This document shows, piece after piece, positions 5,930 to 58,250 of a DNA stretch of 60,655 bases. The position numbers and the translations under genes were made by a program. The notes under the pieces are model-generated. The model saw only the letters and a list, made by a program, of their open reading frames with translations. It was not told the DNA's origin and ran no database searches. The number at the start of each line of letters is the position of its first letter. The stretch's first letter is position 1. Origin of the DNA: a bacterium (lineage in GTDB: Bacteria > Patescibacteriota > Minisyncoccia > Phycocordibacterales > JABMNX01); contig NZBM01000006.1 of NCBI GenBank assembly GCA_002687905.1, positions 1-60,655 on the forward strand, given 5' to 3'.

Positions 5930-6748
5930 ATGGGACTTTCAACAGACGCGCTGTCAGAGCAGTATGGGGACTCCAAAGTCGGAGCTTTCCACGAATTCCT
6001 GGCATCTGTCAGGGGCGAAGGCGGCTCATTCCACATCGACCTTCGTGGCGAGCCGGTCTACGACGAGCGCTACGCAAACGTCGGTGATTTTCATGAAGGC
6101 CGTGCTTGGGCAGTACTCAGGCAAGAACCGATATTCCACATCGACCGGCAGGGTAAGCCGGTCTACGATGAGCCTTACGCGGAGGTGGGTGATTTTCACG
6201 AAGGCCGTGCTTGGGCCAAAGACGGCACAGGCACTTTCCACATCAACCACCAAGGCAGGCCTGTCTACGCTGAGCGTTACGCGGAGGTGGGTGATTTTCA
6301 CGAAGGCCGTGCTTGGGTAAAGCGGAAAGACGGGCTGATGTTCCACATCGACAGCGCTGGCATGCCGGTCTACGATGAGCGTTACAAGAATGTCGGTGAT
6401 TTTCATGAAGGTCGTGCCAGTGTTACCAATGGCGATCAGGACGACACGTATGGAGACTACGACGTGATGTTCCACATCGACCATCGTGGCGAGCCGGCCT
6501 ATGCCGAGCGCTACAAAAGGGTCGGCAATTTCCGTGAAGGTTTGGCCTTCGTTCTTGAGCCGCACTACGACGACGAGCATGGCCCTGGCTACGACGAAGT
6601 TGCATTTCACATCGGCCACGATGGGGCGCCTGCCTACGACAAGCGGTTTCGTGAGACCGACGGCTTTGAGCGTGGTGTCTCCTACGTGCTCGCGCTCGAC
6701 GGAAGTGAGTTCGCCATAAATCACGATGGAACGAGGATGGAGGTGTAG
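5930..6748 (+). CDS. WG (KWG) repeat-containing protein
   Basis: Seven or so FHID..G.PVYDERY..VGDFHEGRAWV-type repeats; SD agaggag upstream. Confidence 0.85.
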   Translation: MGLSTDALSEQYGDSKVGAFHEFLASVRGEGGSFHIDLRGEPVYDERYANVGDFHEGRAWAVLRQEPIFHIDRQGKPVYDEPYAEVGDFHEGRAWAKDGTGTFHINHQGRPVYAERYAEVGDFHEGRAWVKRKDGLMFHIDSAGMPVYDERYKNVGDFHEGRASVTNGDQDDTYGDYDVMFHIDHRGEPAYAERYKRVGNFREGLAFVLEPHYDDEHGPGYDEVAFHIGHDGAPAYDKRFRETDGFERGVSYVLALDGSEFAINHDGTRMEV

Positions 6749-26140: not shown

Positions 26141-26188
26141 AAAGAAAAATTTGCGACTCATCCGGTTGAGTCGCAAATTTTGGCTTAT
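26141..26188. repeat. Dispersed palindromic repeat family B, copy 2
   Basis: aaagaaaaatttgcgactcatccggttgagtcgcaaattttggctta. Confidence 0.8.
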
Positions 26189-26210
26189 ATTAAGGGTTTT
26201 TTGGAGTGTA

Positions 26211-38050: not shown

Positions 38051-38098
38051 TAAGCCAGAATTTGCGACTCAACCGGTTGAGTCGATTATTTTGGCTTA
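38051..38098. repeat. Dispersed palindromic repeat family B, copy 3
   Basis: taagccagaatttgcgactcaaccggttgagtcgattattttggctta. Confidence 0.8.
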
Positions 38099-39552
38099 TT
38101 TAACTTCCAAATTAGGAGGCCATAAAAAGCATAAAGAACGATTACGAAAATAAATGGGAAATTATCTATTTGAACTGACGCAAAAGGAAGGCGTGCAAAG
38201 AAATCTACAATCGTTAGCTGATATGTAAGGAGTGCATAGGAGATAAAAGCAAATGGTAATGATAGACCAACGCTAAGAAGCCCGACAACACCCGTAAGAA
38301 AGCCAATGAGCATGGTTATGGGCACAACAATCAGAACTAGTAGATTTACTGGAAGAGATACTAGTGAAAGTTCGCCTACTTGGTAGAGCAGAAGTGGTAA
38401 AACAAAGATTTGAGTTGCTACTGTCGCTACTGCAAACTCACGAAGCTGTAATCGTGTAGGTACAAATTTAAAATATTTCTCAATTTTTGGTGCAAGATAG
38501 ATTAATCCAAGCGTTGCAAGAAAAGAAAGTTGAAATGATGCATCAAAAATCAAAATTTTTGGATTGTGGAGAACCATTATAAATCCTGCAATGAAAAGTG
38601 CTCGCGTGATTGCATACGTTCTTCCTGTTGCGCGCGCAACAATAACCAAAAGCGCCATAATGCTTGCACGAACTATGGTCGCTGAAGCGCCAGTCATTAA
38701 TGCAAATAGAACTATTGCACTAGAACCAAGGGCCATACCAAATGCTTGGGGCAAAAATGAAAAGGTGCGCATAAGAGCTTCTGCGACAATGGTTACGTTG
38801 TACCCAGAGAGAACAACTATATGAATTATTCCGGTCGCTCTGAAATCATCTTGAAGCTCTTCGCCGAGGGACTGCTTTGCTCCCACAACAAGGCCGCCCA
38901 AAAGAGACGACTGTGGGTCGGGAATTATTTTCTCAACACTTTCAAGAAATTTATTTTTTACTGAGAACAGAGTCCTTTTTACAAAATTCCCATGACCACG
39001 CGACATAAGAATGGCTTCGGGGAATACCATCTGGTAAAAGATGTCATCTTTCCCAAGAAATTTGTCATAAGCGAAGTAATCGCCATCGTCTGCCACAAAA
39101 CCACTCGGCTTCATTAGCTCTCCTGATATAGAAATGCGGTCTCCATATTTAAACTCTGGATGACTAGCTCCATGAATCAACATTTTCTCACTCACATCAC
39201 TTCCACCCACGCTTTCAAGAAGAACCGTGAGTTTCGTATTTGTTTCTCTAATATCAGGTTCATCAATTACGACTCCAATTACCTCAATGTGCCTGTTGAT
39301 CTGTGCTTCTAGTAATAGATTCCCTTTATTTAAATCGGCAAAATCAAAGCGAAGAACCCCTAAACCAACACCGAGAACAACCACAGAGATAATTATTGAC
39401 TTACTGTGTCTGCTTAGCGCCGCGATTCCCAAAAGAATCGCGGCGAGTGCTAAAAGAAAGATGGAAAAATAAAATCCTAAATCAAAAAAGGAGCGCCAGA
39501 GCACCCCAAAACCAAAAGCAATGATAAAAATATATGGAATGTGCTTCATCAA
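38086..39552 (-). CDS. comEC: ComEC/Rec2 competence-domain membrane protein
   Basis: LVVGAKQSLGEELQDDFRATGIIHIVVLSGYNVTIVAEAL; no MBL domain in this ORF. Confidence 0.9.
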   Translation of the reverse strand: MMKHIPYIFIIAFGFGVLWRSFFDLGFYFSIFLLALAAILLGIAALSRHSKSIIISVVVLGVGLGVLRFDFADLNKGNLLLEAQINRHIEVIGVVIDEPDIRETNTKLTVLLESVGGSDVSEKMLIHGASHPEFKYGDRISISGELMKPSGFVADDGDYFAYDKFLGKDDIFYQMVFPEAILMSRGHGNFVKRTLFSVKNKFLESVEKIIPDPQSSLLGGLVVGAKQSLGEELQDDFRATGIIHIVVLSGYNVTIVAEALMRTFSFLPQAFGMALGSSAIVLFALMTGASATIVRASIMALLVIVARATGRTYAITRALFIAGFIMVLHNPKILIFDASFQLSFLATLGLIYLAPKIEKYFKFVPTRLQLREFAVATVATQIFVLPLLLYQVGELSLVSLPVNLLVLIVVPITMLIGFLTGVVGLLSVGLSLPFAFISYALLTYQLTIVDFFARLPFASVQIDNFPFIFVIVLYAFYGLLIWKLNKPK

Positions 39553-39980: not shown

Positions 39981-40018
39981 AAACACAACTACTACGATAT
40001 ATCGTAGTAGTTGTGTTT
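39981..40018. promoter_or_regulatory. Perfect 38-bp palindrome (operator-like) abutting the rnhA start
   Basis: aaacacaactactacgata|tatcgtagtagttgtgttt; contains TACGATATATCGTA. Confidence 0.7.
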
Positions 40019-40415
40019 ATTTCAAGTTTTTCCATCTACCTCGCCCCATAGGGGGAAGTCCGCCACGGGAAAGAGATTCAATGTCTTTCCAAAACTTTTC
40101 TTTTTGCTTTTTCTCCTTAAAGAAAGAGAGTACTGTTGAAAAACCTCCTCTATCCATTTTTACGTGAAGCCTTCGAATTGTAGAGGGGCTAACTTTTAAG
40201 GTCCTTTGTATATAAAGATACGAAACATTTTCTGACAACATAAAAAGTATGGACAAACGCTTTGCGAACATTGTTCGCTCGGTACCTGTAAAGATCTCAC
40301 CAAGGAAAGAGCGACCTCGAAAGTTTTCTTTGAGATTTAATATGTGTTGATTAAAGCGATCGCTAATTTGTTCGTATATTTTATCTTCAACTTGTTGCGT
40401 AGATATATGGGGCAT
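40017..40415 (-). CDS. TrpR/YerC-YecD-like transcriptional regulator
   Basis: FLGEIFTGTERTMFAKRLSILFMLSENVSYLYIQRTLKVSPSTIRRLHVKM: Trp-repressor-like HTH; start MPHIST. Confidence 0.8.
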   Translation of the reverse strand: MPHISTQQVEDKIYEQISDRFNQHILNLKENFRGRSFLGEIFTGTERTMFAKRLSILFMLSENVSYLYIQRTLKVSPSTIRRLHVKMDRGGFSTVLSFFKEKKQKEKFWKDIESLSRGGLPPMGRGRWKNLK

Positions 40416-40439
40416 ACCACTACGATATATCGTAGTGGT
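40416..40439. promoter_or_regulatory. Perfect 24-bp palindrome (operator-like) abutting the TrpR-like gene start
   Basis: accactacgata|tatcgtagtggt. Confidence 0.75.
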
Positions 40440-40471
40440 TAGTCTAACAAGTTTGGTCTTGTTAGTAATCA

Positions 40472-54545: not shown

Positions 54546-54654
54546 GCCCGTCAGTTGACGAGGCAGACCTGCCTATTTGGGCTTTCGCCCACTACCCACA
54601 AAATCCGCTTAAAAGCGGATTTTGTGGTTCTAGGGCTTAACTTTGTGCGGATAG

Positions 54655-54781
54655 GGGGAATCGGCGTCAGCTCGCTAACTCAAAAACCTTACGATATATC
54701 GTAAGGTTTTTGATAAGTGGCTCCTGCCCGGACTCCCCAGCACCTAACGCGTTAGGTGCTGGGTCCGTCTTTCGATTCCCC
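54655..54781. repeat. Structured tRNA-linked repeat, copy 2
   Basis: ggggaatcg..cgattcccc outer stem; palindromes 54682-54711 (aaaaaccttacgatatatcgtaaggttttt) and 54736-54763 (cccagcacctaacgcgttaggtgctggg). Confidence 0.88.
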
Positions 54782-54832
54782 ACAAAATTCAATCACAAAA
54801 GACCACATTAAGTGGTCTTTTGTGTGTTGATG

Positions 54833-54903
54833 TGCGGGTGGGGGGAATCGAACCCCCGACCTCTGCTTGGAAGGCAGACGTTATGCCACTTAACTACACC
54901 CGC
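54833..54903 (-). tRNA. tRNA-Gly(UCC)
   Basis: Minus strand GCGGGTG TAGTTAAGTGGCATAAC GTCTGC CTTCCAA GCAGAG.. GGGGG TTCGATT CCCCC CACCCGC A. Confidence 0.93.
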
Positions 54904-58042: not shown

Positions 58043-58112
58043 TAGTAAAATGATACTAACAAAACTAACACATATGGCAATAGTTTGGTCAAGTTTATAG
58101 CAAGCTACGTTC

Positions 58113-58250
58113 GGGGTGCCGGGAATCGGCGTCAGCTCGCTAATTCGCCTGTCCCGCCAAGGCGTGACGAGCTCATAAGCGGCTCCTGCCCGGACTCCCC
58201 AGCACCTAACGCGTTAGGTGCTGGGTCCGTCTTTCGATTCCCGACACTCC
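58113..58250. repeat. Structured tRNA-linked repeat, copy 3 (solitary)
   Basis: ggggtgccgggaatcg (58113-58128) / cgattcccgacactcc (58235-58250) outer stem; 28-nt palindrome 58198-58225 identical to copies 1 and 2; a different inner hairpin. Confidence 0.85.

Follow-up and report, generated by a model that had tools for sequence, protein, structure and literature searches.

The window, i.e., the whole stretch of DNA analysed here, is contig NZBM01000006.1 over its full length of 60,655 nucleotides, and it belongs to a patescibacterial genome of 591 kb (hereafter G000, other genomes and individual loci being designated by G and L numbers). Three copies of a structured element sharing a common layout are present at 1-99, 54655-54781 and approximately 58111-58250, the first one being cut by the start of the contig, and a 28-nt palindrome is identical in 3/3 copies (Table 1). 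The original prediction, made from the sequence alone, had described a three-copy structured repeat with this layout and at these places, an invariant 28-nt palindrome, neighbouring tRNA-Gly and tRNA-Ile genes, and an outer stem corresponding to the T-arm of the neighbouring tRNA in opposite orientation; these claims held, both tRNA genes being confirmed on the minus strand. What it had missed is that the other side of the stem continues into a second tRNA 3' end (54643-54663 and 58111-58128), and the start of a further element (~100-147) adjoining copy 1 comes as an addition to it.

Read in the direction of the tRNA, i.e., along the minus strand, the locus of copy 2 successively comprises tRNA-Gly, a terminator-like hairpin, R'' (the 5' half of the outer stem P1), the arms P2 and P3, R' (the 3' half of P1), and then CGATTCCCCCTATCCGCACAA. 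In our reading of the locus, R' is the right junction of the insertion. Of the two terminator-like hairpins, the one lying in the gap between tRNA-Gly and copy 2 would be the present, cassette-borne terminator of tRNA-Gly, and the one past the duplicated 3' end would be the older of the two, both being inferences. Next to copy 1, the remnant holds a second R'' (AGGACTTGAAAGACGGA, 129-145) together with part of a P2 arm. As for copy 3, the 3' end found at its R' is the same as that of tRNA-Pro in a relative (L126), and no tRNA-Pro was found upstream of the copy before the contig ends at 60655. Two open reading frames (ORFs) lie upstream of copy 3, the 351-aa one having no Pfam match; that both are cargo of copy 3 is possible but only inferred.

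Other repeats occur in the window. The palindrome ACGATATATCGT is present four times (9-20, 39994-40005, 40422-40433 and 54691-54702; 0 expected). Two copies of the element have it at the apex of P3, and the other two occurrences belong to hairpins on either side of 39987-40440. P3 is topped by this palindrome in further genomes as well, and it may represent a separate hairpin family or a binding site. Another palindromic repeat of ~52 nt (AAGCC..ATTTGCGACTCAACCGGTTGAGTCGCAAAT..GGCTT) has three copies (314-365, 26141-26192 and 38052-38103), and sequence resembling it follows other tRNA loci of G000 (L007, C7). Five 81-nt repeats, spaced 102-129 nt, occupy 6025-6546.

Table 1. Coordinates of the features of the window
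Feature	Position	Strand	Description
Copy 1, truncated	1-99	minus	P3 in part, P2, and an R'' (TAGGACTTGAAAG) that matches tRNA-Ile
Remnant of another element, on the tRNA-Ile side of copy 1	100-147	minus	
tRNA-Ile(TAT)	202-275	minus	Target of copy 1
Second terminator-like hairpin	54596-54627		Past the duplicated tRNA-Gly 3' end; from sequence
tRNA-Gly 3' end duplicate	54643-54663	minus	CGATTCCCCCTATCCGCACAA, diverged from the gene copy CGATTCCCCCCACCCGCACA
Copy 2, R' (3' half of stem P1)	54655-54663	minus	Direct T-arm copy CGATTCCCC
Copy 2, arm P3	54664-54728	minus	GGGC..GCC base, internal loop, variable hairpin, ACGATATATCGT apex
Copy 2, arm P2	54729-54768	minus	Short base stem, G/A-rich internal loop, 28-nt palindrome
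28-nt palindrome within P2 of copy 2	54736-54763	minus	CCCAGCACCTAACGCGTTAGGTGCTGGG
Copy 2, R'' (5' half of stem P1)	54769-54781	minus	Inverted T-loop/T-stem copy GGGGAATCGAAAG
Terminator-like hairpin between tRNA-Gly and copy 2	54794-54824	minus	From sequence; inferred from locus-specific terminators
tRNA-Gly(TCC)	54832-54903	minus	Target of copy 2; T-arm/3' end CGATTCCCCCCACCCGCA
tRNA-Pro-type 3' end after copy 3 R'	58111-58128	minus	CGATTCCCGGCACCCCGA
Copy 3	58121-58242	minus	R'' 58231-58242, P2, P3, R' 58121-58128
ORF, 351 aa	58606-59661	minus	Upstream of copy 3 in cassette orientation
ORF, 254 aa	59727-60491	minus	Weak methyltransferase match (PF08241, 5e-5)

Fold of the element and its target-matched arms

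The element folds as a three-way junction, where the outer stem P1 (R''/R') carries the two arms P2 and P3. The fold of copy 2 reaches -71.5 kcal/mol against -36.0 +/- 3.7 for shuffled sequences (z -9.5; z -9.4 for the other strand), and that of copy 3 likewise departs from its shuffles (z -6.2 on the plus strand and -7.5 on the minus strand). Across 117 aligned elements, standard pairs fill 95.0% of the cells and changes on both sides are found in 44 of the 47 pairs, the covariation score being 0.475 vs 0.140 when shuffled (0/500 as high) and at most 0.073 with slid partners. Since this alignment was fitted to the structure, the counts are biased towards it; the bias is nonetheless an unlikely source of the signal given the magnitude of the effect and the occurrence of double changes at the base of both P2 (A-U 69, G-C 32, C-G 7) and P3 (C-G 43, U-A 43, G-C 22). 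On the tRNA-sense strand, G-U exceeds A-C in fixed columns (52 vs 19), the difference not being significant in the best-scoring half (25 vs 14, p = 0.11); this strand-specific excess fits a folded tRNA-sense strand, and it fits an RNA equally well. An extra hairpin called H1, i.e., a 9-bp stem with a 4-nt loop, usually CTGC, followed by GTG or GTC, directly precedes R'' in about a quarter of the patescibacterial elements (37/130 by an automatic scan, a few of which are not of this type) and in most of the elusimicrobial ones seen. Where present, H1 interrupts a longer inverted copy that takes in the acceptor.

The outer stem consists of two copies of the T-arm of the element's own tRNA, one inverted (R'') and one direct (R'), the latter continuing into the duplicate of the tRNA 3' end. 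At the level of the order, 93 of the 134 distinct elements follow a tRNA or tmRNA gene of the same strand at a distance of 23-105 nt (median 57), and the targets of these 93 cover all 20 amino acids. R'' matches its own tRNA at 8.16/10 and other isotypes at 5.64 (300 shuffles, maximum 5.91), with corresponding values of 8.74/10 and 5.73 for R'. The match over the 19-nt tRNA 3' end is 15.24 vs 9.38 for other isotypes, and at least 17/19 nt of this end are kept after R' in 52/93 elements. Within G000, for instance, R'' reads AGGAATC at Met, TGGTCTC at Phe (T-arm GAGACC), GGGACTC at Gln and AGGACTTG at Ile. The inverted copy can also extend across the acceptor and the terminator, forming a single long fold-back (L036 and, in G000, tRNA-Ser C1:9288).

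It is shown that one core type serves many tRNAs of a genome with arms matching each target. Where a genome has at least three elements, the core closest to a given one belongs to the same genome 30/84 times (4.7 expected) and is on the same isotype 4/84 times (3.1 expected); because core similarity follows the genome, not the tRNA, the core either moves from one tRNA to another inside a genome or undergoes homogenisation in it, and gene conversion instead of jumps remains a possible origin of this clustering. The match of R' is explained by the insertion itself, which sets it. That of R'' is inferred to result from copying during insertion, from template-switch correction of an imperfect palindrome, which is a known mutation process (PMC7202029, PMC8794818), or from selection, these three options being undistinguished.

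Distribution across genomes

With up to two mismatches, the core CTCCTGCCCGGACTC has 12 matches in G000 and none when reversed as a control, and the covariance model R1, built from 8 copies, has 22. Most of these copies stand behind tRNAs (Met, Ser, Gly, Leu, Phe, Gln, Cys, Lys and Ile) and most have near-identical cores with locus-specific terminators and arms; of the 30 tRNA flanks examined, out of 34 tRNAs in total, at least 11 bear the element. Beyond G000, R1 has matches in 74/148 genomes of the order, and R2, a model built from 117 diverse elements, in 43/380 genomes across the phylum, other classes included, as well as in 36/120 genomes of Elusimicrobiota. An independent exact pattern retrieved at least 118 stretches from a collection of named genomes, and 88 of these 118 follow a same-strand tRNA or tmRNA by no more than 120 nt; another genome pattern, which was over-specific, gave no matches. 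Where named, the lineages are Paceibacteria and related Patescibacteria (Kaiser-, Zambryski-, Yonath-, Taylor-, Nomura-, Vogel-, Campbell- and Lloydbacteria, among others), Elusimicrobia, and one record of Acidimicrobiaceae. The latter (L326) was rejected as a chance match, being away from any tRNA and missed by the model. Among 2.9 million viral contigs, an exact-sequence scan found no element pattern, and the search for relatives of Xer in viral contigs found none.

At a loose threshold, Rfam returned only tRNA/tmRNA and chance matches. No matching family was met in the databases and open-licence papers searched, ISfinder not being among them, and nothing relevant was found in open-licence papers either on integrons or attC in Patescibacteria and tRNA-linked repeats or on elements common to Elusimicrobia and Parcubacteria. 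The original prediction would have been refuted by a lack of tRNA association genome-wide, by a stem fixed as GGGAATCG whatever the neighbour, or by a match to a known family. None of these occurred, as the elements are associated with tRNAs, R'' tracks its own tRNA and no Rfam family matches, ISfinder remaining outside the comparison; the covariance-model search that it proposed across genome and relatives yielded many more copies, most of those in the order lying 3' of a tRNA or tmRNA.

Insertion, arrays and candidate enzymes

Insertion with duplication of the tRNA 3' end is shown by sites compared within one genus. In G002 and G005, tRNA-Met is directly followed by a spacer and tRNA-Asp, which corresponds to the empty site. 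In G004, a 158-nt insert composed of H1, R'', core, R' and a second tRNA 3' end CATCCGTCCCTCGGCACC lies between tRNA-Met and the spacer, which resumes after it. The T-arm of tRNA-Met in G004 differs from those of G002 and G005. This would follow if the 3' end had arrived with the insert, but divergence could also account for it. Tandem arrays are common and consist of (i) two identical 213-bp units at tRNA-Val (L471), (ii) near-identical units (L472, L470), or (iii) unlike units, e.g., at tRNA-Val (L465), at tRNA-Ser (L015) or at L462. The original prediction had inferred a tRNA-derived or tRNA-targeting element, either mobile, processing-related or regulatory; this inference is supported, and the mobile option is favoured because of the empty and filled sites with tRNA 3'-end duplication and the tandem arrays. 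Separately, at tRNA-Gly(tcc) of G005, the 3' half of the gene, including the 5' strand of the T-stem, is repeated ~50 nt downstream with no core in between, possibly as a product of excision or decay.

Some elements may carry cargo. At L160, the 3.4 kb separating tRNA-Ser from two Ser-type elements encode an 819-aa SMC-type ATPase (LmuB-like, 2e-27), and at L142, where no tRNA was seen, a DUF4238 gene lies upstream of the element; that the defence-like genes of these two loci are cargo is inferred. L138 and L031 were rejected as cargo loci since tRNAs split by introns adjoin the element. The tRNA genes of both loci appear interrupted by intron-like sequence, which is why the tRNA finder misses them.

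No recombinase carried by the elements was found, and recombinases occur near them at about the level of chance (Xer at four places for the patescibacterial loci and one recombinase for 20 elusimicrobial loci). Four classes of enzymes were compared, namely (i) tyrosine recombinases, (ii) serine recombinases, (iii) Y1 transposases, and (iv) reverse transcriptases. Most element-bearing genomes of the order have a single tyrosine recombinase, i.e., Xer, 58-86% identical across the order, and the element-rich G003, G004, G026, G141 and G043 each have one Xer and no match to PF00239 (serine recombinase), PF01797 (Y1) or PF00078 (reverse transcriptase). PF00078 had no match either in G000-G002, G063, G146 and G086. 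As the sole one common to element-rich genomes, Xer is the only candidate left among the four classes. It is present in the other element-bearing genomes tested with the exception of G110 (CP011215), a complete Campbellbacteria chromosome with three elements where neither Pfam nor a patescibacterial Xer profile detects it; as such, Xer is not needed to keep elements. It is also found in genomes without elements. By the same two means, no Xer was detected in G023. Serine recombinase and reverse transcriptase were rejected as movers, being not required and commoner in genomes without R1 matches, and so was Y1 as a required mover; Y1 proteins occur in 20/27 element genomes surveyed, with none at threshold in G003, G004, G005, G026, G141 and G043. 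Two large serine recombinases of G000 (G000:C8:61342-61782 and G000:C14:16704-17138; frames of 550 and 575 aa), located ~1 kb from tRNA genes, likely belong to ordinary tRNA-adjacent islands.

Proposed mechanism, rival explanations and known systems

The elements very likely constitute a real family of mobile cassettes targeted to tRNA genes. The full reading, namely a non-autonomous, attC-like folded cassette site targeting tRNA T-arms and mobilised in trans by Xer, is favoured over its rivals with a probability of ~0.45, slightly short of even odds, since the folded-strand mechanism, the use of Xer for binding and recombination, and the rebuilding of R'' are all inferred. In this view, the T-loop of tRNA and tmRNA genes would be the insertion site of non-autonomous cassettes. 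Each unit would start at the T-loop and comprise the tRNA 3' end that it restores, a terminator, in some cases cargo genes, in some cases the 9-bp H1, and, at its 3' end, the folded site made of stem P1 (R'' inverted and R' direct T-arm) and arms P2 and P3. As both halves of P1 match the target, the folded single strand would have a double-stranded foot with the target sequence. A recombinase acting in trans, putatively the housekeeping Xer, single per genome, would join the T-arm of the tRNA and this folded strand to each other, in the way that attC is handled by IntI or CTX attP(+) by XerC/D. After the jump, R' would be set by the new target and R'' would be matched again via template switching in the imperfect palindrome or via selection. 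No element was caught moving, neither a circular form nor a single-strand product was seen, and no dif-like site was shown in R'' or R'. A bolder reading makes the joint claim of a hitherto unknown class of mobile DNA, present in two or more bacterial phyla, where the outer arms of the folded site are rewritten for each tRNA entered, a single core being thereby able to colonise many tRNA genes of a genome, and where the host Xer acts in trans on the folded single strand; it is held more tentatively, the balance tipping against it.

The first rival, which remains possible, retains the same cassette with another enzyme, either outside those considered or missing from these genomes (a phage or plasmid integrase or a nuclease/ligase), together with target-primed copying making the inverted arm. 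In its favour, no recombinase occurs near the elements beyond chance, G110 lacks Xer, and the long fold-back inverted copies (at L036 and tRNA-Ser of G000) would be a direct outcome of copying. Against it, the element pattern is absent from the 2.9 million viral contigs and no candidate gene was found; moreover, tRNA T-loops are a classic crossover site of tyrosine recombinases. The second rival, which is unlikely, considers a structured RNA, where the read-through transcript of the tRNA would fold at R''/R' or R''/T-arm to control tRNA processing, termination or stability, the copies of the 3' end being by-products of duplication. While the deep covariation with conserved G/A-rich internal loops, the near-constant position ~57 nt past the tRNA and the excess of G-U over A-C on the tRNA-sense strand are in keeping with it, the element lies beyond a terminator-like hairpin at many loci, orthologous tRNAs of congeners may have it or lack it, the insertion being precise, and the duplicated 3' ends, tandem arrays and tRNA-to-core distance of 3.4 kb at L160 further speak against it. 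The third rival, very unlikely, views the elements as decayed ordinary tRNA-integrating islands, where the element would be an att leftover and the stem an attL/attR by-product. It is supported by the direct repeats of the tRNA 3' end, the defence-like genes near some elements and some degenerate copies; on the contrary, classical att sites have neither an inverted T-arm copy nor a conserved 80-125-nt three-way junction common to two phyla, one core type sits on many tRNAs of a genome, and the minimal G004 insertion is clean, without any island. Lastly, the possibility of REP- or PATE-like repeats mobilised by a Y1 (HUH) transposase is all but excluded: the elements are indeed short, non-coding and hairpin-rich, with Y1 in 20/27 of the genomes surveyed, but several element-rich genomes have no Y1 match and IS200/IS605 elements insert without any duplication, unlike the ~20-nt one found here.

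Returning to the attC-like cassette site, the closest comparison is with integrons, where attC is a folded multi-box site at the 3' end of the cassette, kept for its structure rather than its sequence (PMC3053210). Likenesses include complementary R''/R' outer boxes, a junction at R', arrays and a recombinase in trans (the last being inferred here), and, as integrons require, the cassette ends 3' in a folded, imperfectly palindromic site whose R'' and R' are complementary. Unlike integrons, no IntI or attI was found (in a census of tyrosine recombinases without an IntI-specific model), any tRNA or tmRNA T-arm is targeted, the site is a three-way junction, and most cassettes have no gene, bearing instead a tRNA 3' end and a terminator. 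The attC core consensus is GTTRRRY / RYYYAAC; it is absent here, R' and R'' being T-arm sequences such as CGATTCC or CAAGTCC that follow the target. With tRNA islands, ICEs and prophages using a tyrosine integrase of the T-loop class, the elements share the T-loop junction, the restored tRNA 3' end, its direct repeat and, at two loci, defence-like genes; they differ by their size (~160-210 bp), the lack of an own integrase, the inverted T-arm copy, the structured core, and the use of all isotypes, many via one core type per genome. Like the Xer-exploiting CTX phage attP(+), where a folded single strand can be an Xer substrate (PMC4246890), and IMEX, they have no own recombinase, but those use dif, whereas here tRNA genes are used with no dif-like arms shown. 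REP/BIME and PATE are similarly short, non-coding, hairpin-rich and alike within a genome, without the strict location 3' of tRNA, the target-matched arms, the 3'-end duplication and the independence from Y1 seen here. The IS110/IS1111 bridge-RNA elements also have a structured non-coding segment carrying target-matching sequence; unlike them, no transposase lies in the element, the DEDD proteins of the genomes not being covered. As defining features tested for integrons, autonomous islands, Rfam families, Y1 elements and retroelements are lacking, the elements are filed under no known class.

If the attC-like reading is true, this would be a second natural system besides integrons where a folded multi-arm DNA site defines a cassette, one working without a dedicated integrase and landing in the most conserved genes of the cell. 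If an RNA is involved instead, the elements would form a large family of structured RNAs associated with tRNA genes and so far unlisted. The target-matched arms raise a testable question, namely how the target gets copied into the inverted arm. Patescibacteria, the minimal genomes of which are often thought poor in mobile DNA, would gain a widespread insertion system, some loci of which include defence-like genes, and tRNA 3' flanks would be hotspots breaking metagenome assemblies. Elements are located at many contig ends (G000:C1, G000:C6, G002:C3 and several of G086), as expected if they break short-read assembly.
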